From the NCBI GenBank assembly GCA_018389105.1, contig JACATO010000624.1:806001-870000 (forward strand): a DNA stretch of 64,000 bases, written 5' to 3'. This document shows positions 17,297 to 64,000 of this stretch, piece after piece (positions within the stretch are counted from its first letter, which is position 1; each line of letters starts with the position of its first letter). This DNA comes from Nautilus pompilius (lineage: Eukaryota; Mollusca; Cephalopoda; Nautilida; Nautilidae). The notes under the pieces were generated by a model that was given only the letters and a program-made list of their open reading frames with translations, did not search any database and was not told where the DNA came from. The position numbers and the translations under genes were made by a program.

Positions 17297-17357
17297 ATTC
17301 ATAAATGTACATATTTTTTCAGTAAATAATAAACATTTCTAATACAATAACTGTGAT

Positions 17358-17377
17358 TACACGGGCCAGCAAAATTT
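17358..17377. repeat. left terminal repeat of element 1
   Basis: The terminal 20 bases match the left terminus of the element at 59821 with four substitutions. The adjoining sequence keeps the GCTGATTTCAAA subterminal motif near 17430. Confidence 0.65.
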
Positions 17378-17616
17378 GGGTCATTGAAAATTATCTGCAA
17401 TGTTATAACTGATTTTTATATTGTTTGTGCTGATTTCAAATATGACCACTATTTTTCTCTATCAAGTAAGGATTCTTCACACTGTGAATCCGAAAATATG
17501 GTAAAAGAGATTATTAATACATATTCTAGTTGAAACATTTATTTGCAAAAGAAATTAAAAAATAGTTTAATTTACGAAATTATTGATAGAAAACCGTTCT
17601 CAACACTTACTCCCCT

Positions 17617-19300
17617 CTACAAGTCCTTATAGTGCCTTTTCCGTTTTCCCTCAAAGCTCCTTTTGGTACTTTTTCTCTTGTAAGCAGTTTGCGGCTCTTC
17701 TCTGTGCAGCATCCAACAGTAGTCCGTAATCATGTTGACGTTCCACCTACCCTGGTATCTGCGTTCCATCTCTTTGATATCTTGATGAAATATTTCCCGC
17801 TGCTCTTCACTAACAGCAACGAGATTTTTGGTGAAGTTATCTAAATGAGAATTCAGGGAGCGCACCTTCAAACTCATCTAACAATCCAAGTTTTTGAATT
17901 TCATCAGCATGTTTTCCACAATACACTTAAAGTTGGGGTCCTTAGATTTCCCAAGAAATTTCTGTACTTCTTCGAGAGCTTTCCAGGCCTCTTTATCAAC
18001 TGTTTCCATTTTTGTTTCAAACACATCGTGATCATCTTTCAGAAGTTTCCAAATATCTGGACCGACAAAAATATCTTTCACTTTTTATTCTGACAGTTCC
18101 GGAAACTTGTTGCGCAAGTATTTAAAATACTCTCCTTTTGATAGAGCCTTTACAAATTATTTCATCAGTCCAAGCTTGATATTAAGTGGAGGCAGGAGGA
18201 CTTTCTTTGGATCAACCAAACTTTCCCGTACTACATTTTTGCTTCCAGGTTCTAATTCTATCCTACACGGCCACTCCTTTTTGATCCAGTGCTGGCCACC
18301 ATCCAGGCTGTCCCATTCACACAAGAAGCAGGGGTACTTGGTGTATCCTCCCTGCTGCCCAAGAAGCATGGAAATTACTTTCAGATCGTCGCATATCGTC
18401 CATCCATGATCTTTGTATTTCAGTTCGGTGAGAATTAAGGCTAAATTCTCGTAGCATTCTTTCAGATACACAGAATGCCCTACTGGTAGTGAAGCGTACT
18501 TGCTGCCGTTGTAGAGAAGCACTGCTTTGAGGCTTCTTTTTGACAAGTCAATAAAGAGCCTCCACTCGTTCACGTCATACTGTATGTTAAACCTCTCCAT
18601 CAGTCCAGGGACATCGTTACAGTAAATTAGATCATCTTCTTTAGAAAAGTAAGGAATGAAATATTTTTCTCTATTTCTAAACCATGAGAAAGAGGTATCA
18701 GGGACAACAATTTCTTTTCCATTAACCTAGAGCCTAACAGTTCTGCTGCATCGTTAGGAAGACCCAAGTCTTTTACTAAGTCATTCAATTCAATCTGTGA
18801 AAAATGTTGGGGTTCGCTGCTGCCTAAATCATTGTGAAAGTCCTCAGCAGAATACTGGCATTCTTTTTCAGAGTCTTCAGGCGTGTCTTCTAGTTTTTTC
18901 TGTTGGTAAAGGTACTGGTATACCTGGGCCATGATGTACAGGGCGTATTGCCGACGAGAGGCTCGGACAGAAAATTTCTTTCTTATTTTTTTAAATTGAA
19001 CCCTGTACGTTACACGAACAAAAGTAACAGTCATCACTGTGATTTCTGGGTTTTTTTCAGAGCATAATGATTCCAAAATGGAAAGACATTTTCTTACCTT
19101 GAGACCACTGTCGGAGTTCTTCCACACAAATAGAACACACTTTATATGGGGCCCAGGACTTATTCTGGTCACCAAGTTTCACACCAAAATACGCATAATA
19201 CACTTTCTTAACAAAGTCTGTAATGTTTCTTTGCTGTTTCTTCACTACAACGTTCCCACAAATCTAACAAAAGTTATCAGGTGCATTATGACAATCTCTT
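17617..19300 (-). pseudogene. transposase-like protein, CxxC / HQDI family, inactive
   Basis: Read from 19300 downwards. An N-terminal C4 zinc-binding module begins DCHNAPDNFC-x-ICG, with a stop replacing the residue between the cysteines. It continues ITDFVKKVYYAYFGVKLGDQ and VCSICVEELRQW. Next comes a linker with SQIELNDLVKDLGLPNDAAE and GSRLMEK (near 18700-18800). A conserved core (18157-18600) follows: EWRLFIDLSKRSLKAV (possible first catalytic Asp), VGHSVYLKECYENL, WTICDDLKVISMLLG, CFLCEWDS (CxxC) and PPLNIKLGLMK, where His is expected instead of Asn. The C-terminus (17617-17880) has SEEQREIFHQDI and EMERRYQGRWN, then a Lys/Arg-rich tail. Frame changes near 19060, 18640 and 17880 and a stop near 18157 inactivate it. 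I know the family only as multicopy uncharacterised animal proteins. The transposase role is inferred from the terminal repeats and motif order. Confidence 0.75.
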
Positions 19301-19470
19301 GCAGCTAGTTAGTACACTTATAAAAAGAAGAAAACCACAAATAAAAACATATAAAGAAAAAAGGAGAGAAAAAGTAAACTTCTGCAGAAATGACACGTCT
19401 GGAAAAGCACACTGATTATGACAGCACCTTCTCACACAAAGATCTAATTGCAAATGAGTCCAAGTAGGGA

Positions 19471-19560
19471 GTGTGGAGAGGGGGGAGCAAAAAGGAGTGA
19501 ATCATCAGCTTATCTCACTGTCTGGCACTGCCTGGAGAGGGGGAAACAAAAAAAGAGTGA
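19471..19560. repeat. two 30-bp G/A-rich units spaced 60 bp apart
   Basis: GTGTGGAGAGGGGGGAGCAA at 19471 and CCTGGAGAGGGGGAAACAAA at 19531 are each followed by an A run and GAGTGA. They sit exactly 60 bp apart in the non-coding part of element 1, on the 5' side of its gene. They could be a diverged tandem duplication within the element. Confidence 0.5.
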
Positions 19561-19744
19561 GTAAAAACAAGTTAAAAAATAAAAATTAATTATAATTCAT
19601 TTTTTTTTTGTTTAGAAGCTTAATACAGTGGTTCTGGAGATATTGAAATCGAAAATTTGAGTTTCTGGGAAAATGGCACTTGATGGAAATTTTAAAATAT
19701 TTTTACTGAAAACAGAACCTAAAAATCTATAAGAATCAGCTGTT

Positions 19745-19777
19745 AGTTTTGGCCAATTTTTCCATTTCAGGCCTGTA
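19745..19777. repeat. proposed right terminal repeat of element 1
   Basis: On the minus strand this starts TACAGGCCTGAAATGGAAAA and runs to AATTGGCC. It partly matches the left end TACACGGGCCAGCAAAATTT if small gaps are allowed. Further in there is CAGCTGATTC. The match is imperfect, and the true end may lie elsewhere. Confidence 0.4.
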
Positions 19778-20336
19778 TTATCGAAATAAATTCTAGATAC
19801 TTTTTATCTGTTGTTTCAAATGCGCATGGATTCTGCCTTCACCGCACAAATCTTTTCCCCACGAGAATATTTTCCGATTTAAACAGCACAGGCAGAAAAT
19901 TCATATCCCGCAAATTCAAACAGATGCTGCTGACTTATGACCTGCTTACTGTAAATAAAGAATCGAGAACCTACAGCCCACGGGCCTGACCCGGTCCGCC
20001 AGTTCTTTGATCAAATATACAAGTTAATGGCCTAGTGCTCGCAAACCACGCACTTGATATTAACCCTGCATTAATGCATAAACCCACTAATTTGTTTTCT
20101 AATAAATTGGACTTAGAATTATAGCCAGGTGTCTGCTAAATTTTATTTACTGAACTGAATTGTTATTTATTGTGAAAATAAAGTGCTTAGAGATGGGAGT
20201 ATAAATGTTCTTCATGTGAGCAGTTAGCAGAGGGGAGAGACCATCCGGTAACTTGTGGAAATCTTTTATGGATCGTATCTAGAAAAGAACTTTGTGTTCA
20301 ACTTCTTTTTATATTTCATCAGTGCTGAATCACAAA

Positions 20337-22170: not shown

Positions 22171-24645
22171 ATTATTATCATTATTATGTAACTCATGCTT
22201 CCGACAACATGGACCTTGCATGGGTCCTTAGTTTCCTTTCACTGACTAGTGTTGTAATGATAGCCCATTTGTTGTTCCTGTTCTCAAGAATTTCTTTGAA
22301 GGTTTTGGTTGTGTCAAGATATCTGAAATGTTGTAGTTATTTGTAGAGTGAGCAGGTTGCATCTGGAGCCAAATGGAGTCTGTAAAGGTAGCTCTGGCAA
22401 GGAGAGTGTTGCAATCTCAGTTGTGATATAATTACTTGTTCCTGTATCTGACTGAGTTTGGCTTTTCTTGTAGGGAATAGTAGGCTCTACAACTTGTCTC
22501 ATCTCGCGAACTATTTTTCCAAATATTAAGAGTAGACTGATTGAATGAAAATTTGAAAGAAGCTATAGATTCCATAGGATTGTTGATGGGTTCACGTTTT
22601 GCTGCTAACTTTTCCAGGGTGTACGTTCTTTCATTTCCATAAGTTCCCACATGGCTTGGTATCCACTGAAATGTAACAGAGGCTTGAATATTGTCAATGA
22701 GGGTTAGGATTAGGTCGTTGATGTTTTCTCCTTTTGTTGATAACTTTTAGTTTCAAGCTTGGTGACAATAAAGTCTAGATTGCTGTGAGTGATGTTGGTG
22801 GTACCATCATCAGCCTAAGTAATTTGAGAACAGGGCTTTGGAATGATGTAGGCGGAGCATACATCATGATATTGAAAATTGTTGGACTCAGAACTGCATC
22901 TTGTGGTGTGCCAGTACTTATGTGAAATTGCTTCGTGGTTTGATCAGATACTTGAACTTTAATGTATCTTTCATTTAGGAAGCTTCTTATTGATTTTAAC
23001 ATGTTCCCTGCTATTCCAATTTTTGCTACCTTAGTGATGAGATCCTCCCATCACACCTTATCAAAGGCACCTTCAAGATCAGTTAAAACTAAAACAGTAT
23101 ATTCCTTGTTGAACAGACCTTTGTGACACTGCTCAGTGATTTTCATTAGAGCATCAATAGTTCCAGCCTTTGGTCGGAATCCACATTGTAAGTGGTGGAA
23201 GACTTGATCTTTGTGTAGTCTCCAGTTCAAACGGGTGTTAATGAGTCTTTCAAATAGCTTGCCTAGACAGGATGTGAGAGCTATTGGTCTGTAAGACATA
23301 ATTTTTTGCTTATCCTGATTAAGTTTTAGCAAAGGAATAATTTTACTAATCTTCGATGATGAGAGGTAAGTTCCCTGTTTCCAGACGTCATTGAAGAGTG
23401 GAAGTATCATGTTTTTCCCATTTATGGTTAAATCTTTAAACAACTGGTTGTGGATCTATCATCTCCAGCAGTTGAGTTGGAAAGCTCAGCATGTCCAAGA
23501 TTGAGATTTTCCAATGTGAATGGATGATCATACATGTCTTCTCTGTCACAGAACAGGTCTATAGTTCGGTTGCTAAGACTATCTGTATCCTAAAATAATT
23601 TAGAATTGATTGAAGAATCCAAAATACTGCATTTTTCGGAATAATGCTCTCCAAATATGTGGGCCTGGTCTTGAAGATCTGTCACAATTTTACCCTTATG
23701 CTCCAAAGCTATTTGGATATGTCGACTTGAACCATTAATAGTGTTTTCCAGGTGATGCATGAAAGGGTATCTCGATTGATTGAGCCATCAAAATCTTTCC
23801 ATGAGCTGCTTTTTGTTAATTTGATGAATCTTCTAACTACAGCTTGTTGTCTTTTGTAAGCAGCACTGTGTTTGATAGTGTGTGATTTTTTCCACTTTCG
23901 CTTTGCTTTCCTTTTTATTTGGCGCTCCCTAACAATCTCTTTATTGCACCACGATGTTGGAGGGTATATATCGGGTCCTGTTAGGGATAGCTTTCCTCTG
24001 TAGCATTGATTATGCAAGATGTGACAACTTCAACTTTTTCATCAATGTTCAGCTGCTGTTTACTTAAGATAATAACATCAGCTGCTTTGTGCTGAATAAC
24101 CAAAAACTAGATAGCTGCCTGTTTGCTTTTCTGATGTTCCATTTGGGCTGTGCTTGAATGTTTCTTTTCACTCCTGGATTCTATACACGTTACTATAGGA
24201 AAATGGTTAGAGCCAAGTGAATCATGAAGAACTCTCCACTCATTGACTCTGGCTGCCATGTCTGGGCTACTGTTTGTGATATCTATTGAGTCTGTTTTTC
24301 CAGAGGAATGGTTCTGGTAGGGTGTTCTTTGCTGTTGAGGACAATGAGATCATGATCATTAATCCATTCTCGTAATCATGTACCCGACTGATTTGTCTTT
24401 GTACTGCCCCAGTAAGGGTGTTTGGCATTAAAATCGCCAGCTAAAAGTGATTGTCTTGCATTAGGAATATAATCTAATTCTGTTGTAATGCTTTTGCAAC
24501 CATCTCTTGCATATAAGTATATCAAGTTAATGTTAAAGTCTTTATCGATACTAACGTTGGCTGAGATGTATTCTACAATATCAAAATATCTGGTGGATAA
24601 ATTTGAGATACCTGGACTGTTTCGCACACCAACACAGATTTTTTT
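22171..24645 (-). mobile_element. 5'-truncated I-clade LINE nested in the hAT element
   Basis: The retrotransposon lies in reverse orientation within the hAT 3' part. On the minus strand it starts inside the endonuclease domain (about 24640) and ends shortly after the ORF stop at 22195-22193. Its tail of TAA-like units (ATAATAATGATAATAATTT) occupies 22170-22188. TAA-repeat tails and a C-terminal RNase H domain are features of the I group. The missing 5' end is the usual result of incomplete reverse transcription. Target duplications could not be assigned with confidence because both edges are T-rich. Confidence 0.7.
22193..24645 (-). pseudogene. LINE ORF2: endonuclease (partial), reverse transcriptase, RNase H
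   Basis: Domains appear in order on the minus strand. The endonuclease remnant (24376-24640) contains LLAGDFNAKHPYWGS, a catalytic Asp/Asn motif of APE-type endonucleases. A linker follows (23709-24017, with SWCNKEIVRERQIKRKAKRK). The RT core (23051-23443) has ISKIIPLLKLNQDKQKIMSY and RPIALTSCLGKLFERLI, then HLQCGFRPKAGTIDALM and LTDLEGAFDKV. The block STGTPQDAVLSPTIFNIMM (22775-23002) comes next. The catalytic box is T-stop-ADDGTTNI: the Tyr codon is now TAG (22817-22815), in a frame shifted by one from the preceding block. RNase H remnants are seen near 22640 (FQWIPSHVGTYGNE). The ORF ends RTHARSMLSEA-stop. It is inactive through several stops and frameshifts. Confidence 0.8.

Positions 24646-36252: not shown

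Positions 36253-36316
<64 letters not shown>
36253..36316. repeat. (TC)n microsatellite
   Basis: A pure TC run of about 32 units gives a false Arg/Glu-repeat open frame on the minus strand. Confidence 0.97.
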
Positions 36317-36319
<3 letters not shown>

Positions 36320-38055
36320 GATGACTATAAGTAGTAATATAATTCCATTGATTTTAAATTCTGGACTGCATCTGTAGCAAAGATTCAGGTAAAATTCCAC
36401 TGTATTACGCACGTATGCAGATGTTCATTGTATGTAACTTGCAAACATCTTTCAGCTTTTGTTTAACCTTTATAACGAGGAAGAACTCCCGTTGAAGAAA
36501 AGTCTAAAATATCGTTGATAAAAATGTATTTAACTGCGGAAGAATTTTCCAAATTATTTCATTGTAATTGTCTTTTCTTCCAGAAATATTTTAATTTAAA
36601 AGTCATTAAATACGCTCTTTCAGACAACTGTTATTAACCAATGAATCTTTGAGTATTTAACATCAAATCTGTTGGTTTTCCTCCGTGATACGGACTCAAC
36701 AGGATATAGATTTAGTGTGGATGATGTGATATCAACCAATTTTTCTCTTCTTTCAATAGCCAAATCTAAAATTAATGGACCTTTATTTATCATGAAACCA
36801 TTAACTAGTCCATAATGCCCAGAACTGATTTTTTTTCTTATCTTTTCTTTCTTTTTCTGCATCTTATAGTTAAATGATGTACATACTCGACTAAACATTA
36901 AAGGAAATACGTACACCATCTTTATAAACTTGTGCTTCTCTGAGCTGATTTGCTTTTTTCATTGAAAAAGGCCTGTGTTTTTCTGAAAATTGTGTTCTTT
37001 TGAACGAGGCACATCTTTTTGTCTATTAAAATAATTAACTAATTTATTTGTTATCGATTTGGGGTTTATAAAGAAGTTTTTGTGGGTGGTATTTCTCAGT
37101 TTACAGATGCATAATTGATTCATAAGCGAATATTTATTTTATGTAGCGGAATAAAGACATTACAATACCATTTGAAGACAAAGTATGGACTTAGCAGCGC
37201 CATGTAGTTTCCGGTCCATTTTTCCGATAAGGTATTTTTTATCATTTTTTTCACCTATAACTTTCTTTTTTAAAATCTAAATGCTCCTTATATACAACAC
37301 AGACTGCTTATAAAATGCAGCTTTATGAGGAAATTTCGTTTGCCGTATTAGTTTCAATTTTGGCTATGTATGTACAATTTTGGAATTCCCCAAATTCCAA
37401 GTTAACAAAATCCACCTTATAAAAAACAAATTAAGAAAATAATATAAAATCGCATTAAAACAACTTATCTTTAAATACATTTAATAAACATTTTTAAGAT
37501 GAACTGTTACAGAAAAAGCTGACAGTCTTTTTCGTTTAATCAGTTAGATTCCAAATCTACGACGGCAATCATGTTATTCCGCAAATACTAGGTCCTTGGT
37601 TGACTATTAACTGTATCATATAACTTTTCTTCTGAATTGCTTTAAAGTGCCAGCTTTGAATACTCTCCACGAAATTTTTTAAAAGCTCTGGTTGCATCCG
37701 AACCAGGATTTAACCAACTGTTAATGATTGTAAGATTAAGTTGCTTAAAATAAATACACTAACAAAATAAAAATTAAAGCTATCACACATAGTAAGAGAT
37801 AGATGAAAACAATGTGATTCCATCAAAGAAGGTGCAGAGGAAGAAATGGTAAGAGAAGAAGATGCCTGAGTAAATCCTTAACTTTTAGCATAATGTTCAG
37901 AGTGGGATTTAAAAAAAACTAATTTAAAGGATTCTACAACATTTGTTGAAATTCTTAATTATTCCGTGGTTGTTTTCAGACCTTAATCGTAAACAAAATC
38001 AAAGCTGTGTAGATAAATCAGTATAATAAAAACAAGAATATAATCAATCTACATA
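36317..38055. other. AT-rich spacer
   Basis: No domain, tRNA-like structure or long repeat is seen. The minus-strand open stretch 36620-36919 has no recognisable motif. Confidence 0.45.
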
Positions 38056-49123: not shown

Positions 49124-50615
49124 GTGAAAACACTATACAACATATCATTCTACTTGTGACAAAAAAGTACTTACTCAGTTCTGTAGCAAAACACCGAGAA
49201 TCACTCAAATTCAACAAATTCAGATCAAATCGCGGTTTGGATAAAGAAAACAAACATTTTTTGGAAAATAACAGAAATCATTATCATTTATCACAGACTC
49301 CCAACTGACGACTAAGAAACTCGCTATTTCAAAAGCTAATTTTCTATGTAGATGTTTGTAGGTTTGACAAACAAAGGGGCTAATTTACTTTTAAATGGAT
49401 TAATTGTCGCACGTTTGTTAATCTGCTGTCTTTGCTAAAATATTTATAGAGCTTGTCAAATGTTGTTTCTTTGAAAGAAAAAAACAACAAAAGATAATGA
49501 CCAGCTAAGAGAGCTATTAAATAAATGATTAAAACATAATTATAGAAGAAAATCAGTCACTAGAACAGAATGGATGCAAGGTGATCTTTGTGATTTAGGG
49601 AAATGCCATAATTCACGGATTCACTGTAAACATTTGCAAGTGGAACTAACAAAGCATTCCGAGGTCAGAGTTATGAATGTGATGATGTTAGTGAAATAAA
49701 ATGCGAAAGCACCATTACCCTCGACATTACAAAATCTTACATTGAATTACGGTTATATGCATGAAAACGGATATTGTAGGAGGAAATCATCCTAAATTTT
49801 AAACGGAGCAACGTTGACACGACTGGGATTTCTACAGCGTTCAGAAAAAATATGCAGTTCTCGCTCGTTGAAATATTTTTGATGAATTAACTTTTGTTGT
49901 AACAAACGATTATTTCTCATACTTTTTTTGCTTGCTGAATCCATACCATTGCTGGCTTACGGTTATCAGATCTGACAAATACAGCTTACTGGAATGGTGC
50001 TAATTGTCGGCTGATCGATTAGTGATTTTGATTGGTTTTCAGCGCAACTACAGTCAGACGTTCATAGTCGATAGGGTTGTGCCGAGTTCAGCAGTTTCCA
50101 CGATGAAGTGCAGAGGAAAATGTTTTCCAGGACTGTGGCTTGAATGAGTGTTGCAAATGATAGAGTAGACAGCTTTTCAAAGAGATTGTCGACAATTACA
50201 GGATATTATCGGTGGTATATATAACCTAATGAACAAACACGCACACATATATTTATAGATGTATAATGTCAGTGCTGGTCAAGCGAATTTAATGCAATAA
50301 GTCGGGCAGATTCACGTATTTTTTTTCTCACATGATGCGAGTGGATAGACTAGTCTAATTTGACCAGGCAAATGAGAAATTTTGTTTAGAATTAAATTTC
50401 TTTTATAACCATTTCAGGCATGCGAAGTATTGTTGATGCAGATCGGTGTGATGTCAGAAACAAAATAGAGAATAAATGACACTCTCTCAGGATGGGTCAG
50501 GTAAAATTCTTATTTTTTCCTCTCATGTCCATTGAGTATAATCGGATTCGTGTGTAACGAACGGGTTAAAATATGTTGCTGTTTCAAGTGGCCACACAAT
50601 TTTATTAATGATTTT

Positions 50616-50618
<3 letters not shown>
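49124..50618. other. spacer
   Basis: No gene is recognised. The part from 49930 to 50110 is less AT-rich but has no long open frame. Confidence 0.4.

Positions 50619-50711
<93 letters not shown>
50619..50711. repeat. (GA)n microsatellite
   Basis: This is the longest microsatellite in the window: about 46 uninterrupted GA units, giving a false Arg/Glu-repeat frame. The length and purity point to a recent expansion. Confidence 0.98.
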
Positions 50712-58885: not shown

Positions 58886-59820
58886 TTAATTATTTCACTC
58901 CATATTATAAATAGGCAAAAAAAAAGGAGAAACAGTGTATTTGTATTTTACTGTTATTTTTTCCATTTTTATTCTTCTTTAGTAAGCGTTTATTGTGTGA
59001 AGTGTCTGTTCTCTGGAGGCCGTGTTTCACACGGGTTTACACTATTTCGTGATGGTGGCTAATAACTGAACATTGTCCGGTGCAGTTAGGGTTCTTCCCT
59101 AGAAGCCACAGCGAAAATCTACGATGATTAACCGCTCGGGAGCCTTTCTACATTGGCAGCAGAACTGATAATCAGGCAATCGTGGTAGGATGGTAATTGT
59201 GGAGATACCAGAGGCCGGCCTGGATTTTTAATAGGTCATAATTACGATGACAAAGCGCGTTTCAGCAAGCGGCCAAACAATTACATTTTGTCTCGGCCTC
59301 GACCTCGCTCTGCGACCTTCAGTGCCTCTCTTCAATGTTTTGCATGAAAAGCAATAATATTTTGTCAATTCGTTCACGGTATTTTTATGGAAAGACAATT
59401 TTGATATGAAAATAGACTATTGATTCAAGACGGCATAAAAATCAATGATCTATTTTAATAATATTAATGAAAGAATAGAGCGCACTGTATTGTTATATAC
59501 TTTTATTCTATCAGTCTAAAATGCGATTAACCTTATGATTTACTGTTTTTAGTAAGTAATAAAAAAAACATTTCGAGATATTTTGCTACTATTAAAATTG
59601 AACACCTTAAAAATAATATTGCACGTTCACTTATATGTTGTAGAATTAATTTTTTAAAATTTGCATATTTATTTGAATTTTTATTATTTCCATCGATTAT
59701 CATAATGCTCACGAATTCCTCAAAATTAAATGACCAGTTAAAAAATTTACACCATTTAGTGCAATTACTAACCTTTCTCCTTTCTTTAACGAAGTCTAGC
59801 AAGAATGTTTATTCCATAAT
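58886..59820. other. spacer with a less AT-rich segment
   Basis: The part from 59000 to 59350 is mixed-composition DNA with GGCCGGCC, CpGs and homeodomain-like TAATTA and CAATTA cores, but no open frame. It could be regulatory. The rest is AT-rich spacer up to the transposon boundary. Confidence 0.35.
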
Positions 59821-59835
59821 TACACTGGTCAACAA
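59821..59835. repeat. left terminal inverted repeat of element 2
   Basis: TACACTGGTCAACAA is a perfect 15-base inverted match to 61701-61715. It is also related to the left end of element 1. Confidence 0.88.
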
Positions 59836-60057
59836 AATTAAATGTATTATACTCATTATGAATGCAAACCAACTTTTTTAGACTAATTTTTCATGCTGAT
59901 TTCAAAATTTCACTCCCTTTTTATGCAGCACGTATCAGTTATTCAGTAGATACATGCAAATCTTTACATATTTGTATATATGAAATCATTAACGTAATAA
60001 ATAAGGACATTATTTTTAGAAAGTAAATGAGTTTATTGAGTTAAAAAATCATCACTA

Positions 60058-61300
60058 TCATTCTACAAAGAGTGAATACACAAAAAATGGGTCAGACAAA
60101 ACAGACAAAGTTAGAACAACAGAGTTAGAAACATTGTGATTTGGATTTCCTGCGGTGTTCCTGATCTGGTTGATCACGGTAAAGTGTCCAGCAGTAGTCA
60201 GCCAGCATACTGTCATTCCAGAAGCCTTGGTACCGTTTTTCCATAGCACTAATGTCCTGGTGAAATCTTTCACCATGTTCATCAGACATTGCTCCAAGGT
60301 TATCTGTGAAGAACTCCAGATGGGAGTCCAAGAAGTGAACTTTCACTGACATGCGGCAACCCATTGCTGAGTAACATTTCAGAAGATTCTTGATGCCATC
60401 CTTGTAATCCATTGCCTTCTTGTTGCCCAAGAAATTCTCACAGATCCAATTGAAAGCATTCCAGTTCATCCAGTGTTGTCTTGAAGTTGACATCTTTGAG
60501 TACTTCTCTAATTTGGGGTCCGACAAAGGTACCCTCTTTCAACTTCGCCTGTGTGATTTTGGGAAACTTTTCTACAATATACTCAAACCCTCTGGCATTT
60601 CTCTTCCCTATTGTCTTTACAAACCGTTTCATCAGTCCAAGCGTTATGTGCAAAGGCGGCAATAGGACATTACATGGATCTACAAGAGGTGTATTCCTGA
60701 CGCTAGACAGTCCTGGCTGGTATGATGTTCTTGTCTGCCAGTTTGATTCCGAATAATGTCTGTCAGTTGCCCGACTTTCCCATAGACACAAGAAACGACA
60801 CTATTTTGTGAAACCTGACTGCATTCCAATTAAAATTCCAATGACTTTTAAATCTCCACATATTTTCCATGAGTATATTTCATAGGCAATGGCATGAACT
60901 AAAAGTTCCATATTCTCAAATGATTCATGAAGATGAACGGAGTGTGCAATAGGAATGGAGGGCTTCAAATTACCAATATGGAGACGTACAGCTTTTAAAC
61001 TTCGTTTTGAAGAGTGAATACACAAACGCCACTCTGCAGGGTTAGGGTTAGGGTTAATGGCAAAAGGCATGGACTTCTTCCTCTTATTGAACCAGTCACG
61101 TAAGCCATTTGAGCAAGCTGAGCAGATAAAATGTGGTGCCCATAACTTGTCCTGATCTCCAGAGGACAGTCAAAGTATAGCTTATAAATCTTCTTGATCT
61201 CTTGTGTTATTGTACGTTTTTGAGCTTTCACAATAAATTGTCCATAGACATAACAAAACACATCAGGAGGATTTCTACACTGTCTTGACATTGTTAACAC
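60058..61300 (-). pseudogene. transposase-like protein, CxxC / HQDI family, internally deleted
   Basis: Read from 61300 downwards. The N-terminal zinc module begins CRNPPDVFCYVYG (second Cys now Tyr) and ITQEIKKIYKLYFDCPL. A frame change leads to GDQDKLWAPHFICSACSNGL and RDWFNKRKKSMPFAI. The coding sequence then jumps, through a telomere-like NPNPNP stretch, to AEWRLCIHSSKRSLKAV. About 160 residues present in element 1 are missing, and the likely catalytic Asp is now His. Next come HSVHLHESFENM, WKICGDLKVIGILIG, a frame change in the CxxC region, LWESRATDRHY and LLPPLHITLGLMKRFVKTI. The C-terminus (60058-60526) keeps SDEHGERFHQDI, AMEKRYQGFWN and DYCWTLYRD, then a basic tail. It is inactive, and clearly a different subfamily from element 1. 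Confidence 0.8.
61039..61056. repeat. (GGGTTA)3 telomere-type repeat at a deletion junction
   Basis: Three exact GGGTTA units lie exactly where about 490 bp of transposase coding sequence is missing relative to element 1. On the coding strand they read as NPNPNP and keep the frame. TTAGGG is the telomere repeat of many animal phyla. Confidence 0.9.
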
Positions 61301-61700
61301 TGTAAAACAAGTAAGGAAATAGATACAAACGGTTATACTTGTATTGAATTTCAGATGATGAAATATTTCATCAGACCAATTATGACTGGACAATTTGGGA
61401 TGTTGAAACACCTATTTCATCAGACAAAACTTGATTGGTTAATTTAAGATGATGAAATATTGCATCTGAACTATGCAGCAATGAATAATGTAGTTTATTT
61501 TAAAGGTATGTTTCCATGATGTAAATGAAATACATGCATACACGTCATTAATTGGAATTTCTATATAATGCATGAGCTAAAACCAAAAAACTTTCTCATC
61601 TTGAAAAACTCTACATGATGTCAAAAAACTAATTGTATATTTGAAATCAGCATTAAAAATTACACTAAGTACACCTTGACATATGCTTGATGAAAAATAC

Positions 61701-61715
61701 TTGTTGACCAGTGTA
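61701..61715. repeat. right terminal inverted repeat of element 2
   Basis: TTGTTGACCAGTGTA is the exact inverted match of the left end, and is followed by TTAAAAT. Confidence 0.88.
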
Positions 61716-64000
61716 TTAAAATCTGACAATGTAGCAACGGCCGTCTAACGTATCGTTATTTCGTGAATTTGTCATCAAAGTTATTGAAACGTTATTATTT
61801 ACATCTTAGTTATTTGATGAATAAGAAACTGCTGTCTGACACGGATGTCCGACCGTACACAGCTACGAAATTTAGCCAGCCACATGTAGGTCACAAACTC
61901 AAACGAAATTCCAATATAGGATAAACCTAGGACGGTATGCAAGTAAGCTAGTTGCAATGATCCGGTATCGCTTTCACAAGATATTAAAATACAAATAGAA
62001 AAATAACGCTCACGTAAAAATTCCCGTTATTCGCTATAATTTGTCGGTATTTACTCATCTTTTTGACACTCCCCCAACCTCTGTCTTCTCTTGGTTTATT
62101 AAGAATCCGCACCACGCAAGTAATATAATAAACCAGCGCAAATTACCAATTATATTTATTACCAGTCTAATATTGTAGAAATACGAAGTGAGAGAATATA
62201 AAATATAAAACAGATACCTAAATAAAGCGTTACTCTTTACCACCAGGCTAAACTTTGCAGTGGAAACACTCGAATAAGATGCGACACGAGAAAAGGTACT
62301 GGAGATATTTTAAAATTAGTTAGACACCTCTCAGTCATAAATGGTTAACATTTTGGAAATAAGGTAGATGTCGAAAGACCACACCCTCTCCCGGATCCAG
62401 CCACTCGCTGACAAGCACGGAGATTTTAGTATTGATTTAAATTTCTGAACTTGTTAAACGAAGTAATGTCGTGAACTTACGCGAAAGACATTTTTTTTAT
62501 TAAAGAAAGAAAATGAAAGATATTAGGTTTCACAGAATAACCTTTGGAAACGTCATATCCTAAGCAGCAGAAATACCAGATGTTTAAATATATATATAGA
62601 TATATTTTTTAATTTAAAGTTTCGTCTCGAGAAACAAATTTCTTTAGAGGCTTTGCGAGATGCTGGCGGCCTTCACAATGTTTTTTCTCAGAGTTTTCTA
62701 CAGAATACGAGGAAGCGGCACCGTGACTTTGTCTTTCACACAAACGCTGATACGGTATAAATTACAACAGTTGATTTTAAAAAGATGATAAAACAACATT
62801 TTTCTCGTTATTTCGATAGAATGCGCGAACGCATTTTTACTTTAAAGAAAGACCAAGCATATTTACGGGGCCAACAAAAGGCACAACTCATAAAGGAAAA
62901 CAAAAGCATTTCGAACTCTGCCCGAATTCGTTTTTAATTGAACAATCTGACTCAGATAGCAGAGGAACTGCATAATATTTTTAATCTCGTGGGAAGAAAA
63001 GTGAAATTTTAAAATCCAAAAAATAAGTAGAAGAAAAGATTTTATAGCTAAGAATAGGATAGATTCTCGAGTTTCAAGCTCGATATCTATGCAAGATGTG
63101 GGCGGTACCGTGACTCATACAGGTCGAATATACGATTTTCATTTGTATTATATAAACTACTCCATTAATATTTTTCGCATTTCCATGAGTACTAACATTT
63201 TCAGTGCCTTTGCATTTGTTTTAGGCTGGTGGCTCACCATTATTCTTTCACACCTTTCGTAAGTTTTCGACAGCAAAAAAATGTTAGATGCGGAAACGGA
63301 GAGATGTTATATATTGATCTGGACTGCTTTATCAAACGCACGTGAGATTCTACTGTCTGGACGCGGAGCTTCCATACGGGAAACAGGTAGCTATTTTCTC
63401 TTGGAGGAGGATTTTTTTTTCTTTGAAAAAAATGGGGGAATTCTATTTATAACGACCCTAGAGAAACACCTTGGCGTAAAATTAGAACGAGAAAACAAAC
63501 AAACAAACAAAATCTATAGAGCTATTTTTTAATAATTTCTCCTGGGGTACAGAATCTGATAACTCAGAGAAGAATAAAATTATGCACACAAAATGGAAAC
63601 CTCGCGCGCGCTGTATCTAATTTTGTGGGTGTGGACGTGCTGATTTTTTTGCTGACGCACACACAGACAATGTATATATAATTGAGAAATTGCATTTCGC
63701 GGACAAATATGAAGAGCAAAATTAAGAGCATCAAGTACGTCGTATATAATTTATGAAGCTGAACATCAGATAGACTCTTTGTTTTCATTATACGGGTTAC
63801 CCTCCCACAATGATCACGTGATATCCACAGTAACAATGTAAGTCTTGCTTAAAGGTAAAAATTCGGCAAAATGTTAACTTGAAACATAAAAAGAACACAT
63901 TATCCTTTCTGATTTTGTATAACCCTTCGCGAATACAATAGCGGCTCATTTATTAAATGCAGTATTTTTGTAAATTGCACAAGCCGTTCTGCCGAAGAGA
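61716..64000. other. AT-rich spacer to the end of the window
   Basis: No gene or repeat is recognised. Short features are a TA run near 62588-62603 and a CG run at 63603-63611. The plus-strand open stretch 63281-63532 and the minus-strand stretch 63564-63836 show no domain. Confidence 0.45.

Follow-up and report, generated by a model that had tools for sequence, protein, structure and literature searches.

The window analysed here is a 64,000-nucleotide (nt) stretch of the Nautilus pompilius genome (assembly GCA_018389105.1, contig JACATO010000624.1, positions 806,001 to 870,000 of the forward strand), and it contains two related transposable elements, element 1 and element 2, each enclosing the remains of a transposase gene (Table 1). 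Both are very probably dead copies of cut-and-paste transposons of the Chapaev3 type, in the CMC / Transib-RAG1 group. In a scan of the window, the 15-base sequence TACACTGGTCAACAA is present without mismatch at both ends of element 2, at 59821-59835 (+) and 61701-61715 (-), as the initial annotation had reported; with up to 3 mismatches it has 7 matches in the window against 2.54 expected. The shared subterminal blocks noticed earlier are likewise present as 57-nt arms (59878-59934 and 61612-61668) that are 74% complementary. The TA described at both edges is indeed there, but because this outer TA belongs to the target DNA, element 2 proper extends from CAC to GTG, 59823-61713. A perfect 3 base pair (bp) target duplication was not found at element 2 of the window, which is flanked by TTA on the left and TAT on the right.

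We searched the genome (727,640,739 bases, or 727.6 Mb, in 2558 contigs) using the first 301 bases of element 2 as a query, and scored 40 of 1032 first-look candidates. Besides the window, 39 scored places match these bases at 97–98% identity, and they were fetched and examined together with the window copy; the resulting 40 copies are sampled by terminus, such that gene copies without ends go uncounted. A matching right end was found in 39 of the 40 copies, window included, with none in the L038 stretch, and the ends are constant (CACTGGTCAACAA..TTGTTGACCAGTG) apart from a few single-base variants. The terminal repeats of element 2 are therefore far beyond chance, and the expectation that genome copies would share consistent termini holds for both ends in 39 of 40.

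The 3-bp flanks are identical in 25 of the 39 two-ended copies, and every one of these is TTA or TAA (TWA). Because the flanks are strongly biased, we shuffled the right flanks among copies as a control, which gave a mean of 14.6 matches (standard deviation 2.4) and reached 25 in 0 of 20000 shuffles, such that target duplications do accompany many copies, as had been anticipated. Identical flanks are missing in the other 14, including element 2 of the window. An A precedes and a T follows the insertion in 34 of the 39 copies, a count made without a base-composition control. Three two-ended copies (L015, L040, L047) pair a TTA flank with a TAA flank, which points either to a duplication that has since mutated or to the joining of two separate insertions.

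For one insertion, L009, which carries TAA on both sides, a search with the joined flanks yielded 57 candidates, and the 40 that were scored all span the join. All 12 paralogues read from among these 40 have an uninterrupted site with a single TAA and no gaps near the join. These empty sites, of the sort that the initial annotation had suggested looking for, are a direct footprint of transposition for this insertion, and together with the TWA duplication in the copies they indicate that the element transposes. The L009 copy (G000:C315 near 2775261-2775559) sits inside a multicopy hAT-like gene as a nested transposon; its host repeat shows a likeness to the C-terminal dimerisation region of hAT (E 0.0013; at 18.9 bits, under the cut-off of 21.4).

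Between its ends element 2 has a single gene, as first read, although it is broken: the frame changes near 61170 and again between 60538 and 60441, there is an in-frame stop at 60801-60803 before the final stop at 60125-60127, and the first catalytic-core aspartate (D1), which is kept in 60 of 60 homologues, is replaced by H. An internal deletion is private to this copy, with its junction at 1233/1729 in the coordinates of the reference copy L013. The junction carries a telomere-like filler, and two or more TTAGGG units are found in element 2 alone among the 39 two-ended copies; this looks like capture of telomere repeats during break repair.

The 39 two-ended copies fall into length classes of about 1.33–1.37, 1.67–1.95 and 2.30–2.39 kb, with seven copies in the longest class (2295–2388 bp), and the shorter copies correspond to the long form minus one or two internal blocks. 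The breakpoints 1029/2042, 1112/1699, 1192/1846-1849 and 332/1354 (L013 coordinates) are each shared by copies at two or more separate loci, and because identical breakpoints recur in this way, the deleted copies were probably themselves amplified. Such amplification would need transposase supplied in trans, and we infer that the deleted copies moved by this route.

A homologue search returned 3023 database matches at E<=0.001, mostly about 550–570 amino acids (aa) long among the matches listed; those with a named source come from animals. In an alignment of 60 homologues, the residues of the C(2)C, LH and H(4)H motifs are each present in 60 of 60, except for C327 (59 of 60), and C5, C13, C16, C57, C60, C93, C96 and H125 are conserved in the N-terminal part. 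The predicted fold, compared over residues 165–551, matches RAG1/Transib at about 10–15% identity in structural alignments, RAG1 being the enzyme responsible for cleaving antibody genes. Searching PDB by sequence, whether from a single protein or from a profile of 60 rows, turned up no credible relative, and RAG1 was reached by fold only. No Pfam family was matched at cut-off by the protein pieces scanned, and matches below it (zf-AD, IPP-2, SCD, BREX_BrxC_wHTH, Methyltransf_22, GET4) were not used. Neither the 120 homologues listed nor the best 120 of 2385 matches to a moth protein include a Chapaev-labelled protein, and a transposase label is absent from the source names of the matches listed. 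Viral contigs scanned for the bracovirus copy mentioned in excerpts of PMC4079192 yielded 34 pattern-matching stretches, none of which encodes a relative.

An alignment junction between MPFA and (I/V)P coincides with the start of two database proteins (P0025, P0026) and with the position of the published end of a 78-aa exon 1; no intron is present at this junction in the copies here (L010). In its gene model P0026 (Uroleucon formosanum, an aphid; 700 aa) is a transposase fused to a PF07530 domain, which may reflect either an error of annotation or a gene that is chimeric.

Element 1 represents a second subfamily. The resemblance of its left terminus to that of element 2 was confirmed (16 of 20 bases identical), and in addition to this end, noted earlier, we found its right end, which terminates in GTA rather than GTG. 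Over 176 aa, its longest core piece, the 189-aa stretch of Table 1, shares 49% identity with the protein of L013, a copy from the element 2 family. A genome search gave 241 first-look candidates, 40 of which were scored, the 39 others being 89–94% identical, and 21 copies (the window and the first 20 of the 39) were sampled. By a fuzzy end match, in which L063 appears to be a false hit and right ends are in some cases placed two bases early, 20 of the 21 scored as two-ended; 11 have identical TWA flanks, a count that stands without a shuffle control.

Table 1. Features of elements 1 and 2 in the window
Feature	Positions	Strand	Description
Element 2	59823..61713	-	Very probable Chapaev3 copy, 1891 bp, CAC..GTG; gene broken and internally deleted
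Element 2 left terminal inverted repeat	59823..59835	+	CACTGGTCAACAA, 13 bp
Element 2 right terminal inverted repeat	61701..61713	-	CACTGGTCAACAA; on + reads TTGTTGACCAGTG
Element 2 left flank	59820..59822	.	TTA, target DNA
Element 2 right flank	61714..61716	.	TAT, differs from left TTA
Element 2 transposase gene remains	60125..61291	-	Two frames; start ATG at 61291
Telomere-like filler	61039..61056	.	GGGTTAGGGTTAGGGTTA, three TTAGGG units, at internal-deletion junction
Element 1	17360..19777	-	Second subfamily, very probably Chapaev3, 2418 bp; transposase gene broken
Element 1 left target duplication	17357..17359	.	TTA
Element 1 right target duplication	19778..19780	.	TTA
Element 1 left terminus	17360..17372	+	CACGGGCCAGCAA; commonest form in copies read CACAGGCCTGCAA
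Element 1 right terminus	19765..19777	-	TTTCAGGCCTGTA on +; commonest form in copies read TTGCAGGCCTGTG
Element 1 transposase	18160..18726	-	189-aa open stretch with D1, D2 and CxxC regions

Excerpts of PMC4079192 (Zhang et al. 2014) describe Chapaev3 elements as having CAC/GTG ends, a TWA duplication and insertion always between A and T, transposases with C(2)C, LH and H(4)H motifs, and internally deleted derivatives. CAC/GTG ends are present in both of our subfamilies, with variation in single copies such as the right end of element 1, and of the two window elements the TWA duplication is present in element 1 and absent in element 2. We are highly confident of Chapaev3 membership, assigned by anatomy, motifs and target duplication through comparison with published descriptions rather than with a tree. 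The proposal of the initial annotation that this gene family encodes a DNA transposon's transposase is upheld, and both window elements are bounded copies, of two related subfamilies. Its view of the family as uncharacterised did not survive: the ends, the duplication, the insertion context, the motifs and the sizes all agree with published Chapaev3, and the family is therefore unlabelled rather than uncharacterised.

Some observations do weigh against this assignment. The lack of a Pfam family at cut-off and of a transposase label among the homologues listed, together with TA at both outer edges of the window element 2, would suit a new DNA transposon superfamily that targets TA and has no relation to any group described so far. 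We regard this as very unlikely, since 25 of 39 copies and the empty sites point to a duplication of TWA rather than TA, all testable Chapaev3 hallmarks were found, and the predicted fold is RAG1-like. The same TWA duplications rule out Tc1/mariner or another TA-targeting element, the Tc1/mariner duplication being TA. Sampling by terminus would also leave room for a host gene family caught by the ends of an unrelated transposon, which is extremely unlikely given that two subfamilies, at 49% identity between the core pieces compared, each carry a distinct set of matching ends on either side of the gene, and that the protein has transposase motifs and a predicted transposase fold.

The 3-bp duplication also calls to mind PIF/Harbinger-type (PHIS) elements, which duplicate TWA, but their DDE transposase is without a C(2)C/H(4)H zinc region, and Harbinger was ruled out by the presence of these motifs and by the predicted fold. 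Duplications of 3 bp are indeed reported for this group (PMC2213677 and PMC12730594, from excerpts of each); nevertheless the CAC..GTG ends, the CxxC and H(4)H motifs between D2 and E, the RAG1/Transib fold match and the absence of Myb/SANT from the Pfam matches of the scanned pieces make the probability of such an origin almost negligible. Transib proper does not fit the 3-bp duplication, that of Transib being 5 bp.

Taking both elements as Chapaev3, the single gene would encode a DDE transposase of about 560 aa, with a cysteine-rich N-terminal part that probably binds DNA and an RNase-H-like core comprising D1, D2, an inserted and putatively zinc-binding CxxC..LH..H(4)H region, and E, the catalytic residue presumably being either E504 or E507 (P0001 numbering), both of them invariant glutamates. 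If it works as RAG1 and Transib do, the transposase would pair both CAC-ended inverted repeats and cut beside CAC, presumably by nicking and formation of a hairpin on the flank, after which the freed ends would be joined across a 3-bp stagger (A-TWA-T) to generate the TWA duplication; internally deleted copies would be moved in trans.

The finding is correct but mostly ordinary, of a kind already described. It offers a name for many animal proteins now called 'uncharacterised', which look like Chapaev3 transposases and which annotations show as plain genes because the Pfam release searched has no matching model. We tentatively propose, as a possibility somewhat short of probable, that the family of 3023 matches represents an extant branch of the RAG1 lineage, using RAG1-like nick-and-hairpin chemistry with a 3-bp rather than 5-bp stagger. 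Chapaev3 would then be a third model for the evolution of the V(D)J recombinase, one that is very abundant and has yet to be characterised structurally.

Elsewhere in the window, a reverse transcriptase fragment at 23051-23410 (-) is the remains of a retrotransposon (Pfam RVT_1, E 1.4e-12), and two mutually complementary low-complexity arrays lie about 14 kb apart, at 36254-36327 and 50606-50711; these are probably dinucleotide repeats, because their register slides by two bases.

The closest likeness is to the Chapaev3 elements Garfield, Merrow and Conan, which share the ends, target context, motifs and deletion derivatives seen here. The seven longest copies, at 2295–2388 bp, compare with 2289 bp for Garfield_BM (78+478 aa, 556 aa in all) and 2451 bp for Merrow_PM (78+484 aa, 562 aa), smaller members being Garfield_DP (2092 bp) and Conan_ET (1865 bp, 461 aa), all from excerpts of PMC4079192; unlike Garfield and Merrow, our copies lack an intron where those appear to have one. 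According to excerpts of PMC4411706, Chapaev3 has an N-terminal Chapa zinc-finger domain and is placed in the Transib superfamily with RAG1, Chapaev transposases being only distantly related to other Transibs; the RAG1-like predicted fold provides structural backing for this placement. The length and sequence of the duplication set our elements apart from EnSpm/CACTA, Mirage and Chapaev, and its 3 bp contrast with the 5 bp of Transib/RAG1. With EnSpm/CACTA, Mirage and Chapaev they nonetheless share the C(2)C and H(3-4)H motifs between D2 and E that are common to CMC groups, and the CA..TG ends found in most cases, within a group whose duplications range from 2 to 5 bp (excerpts of PMC12730594).
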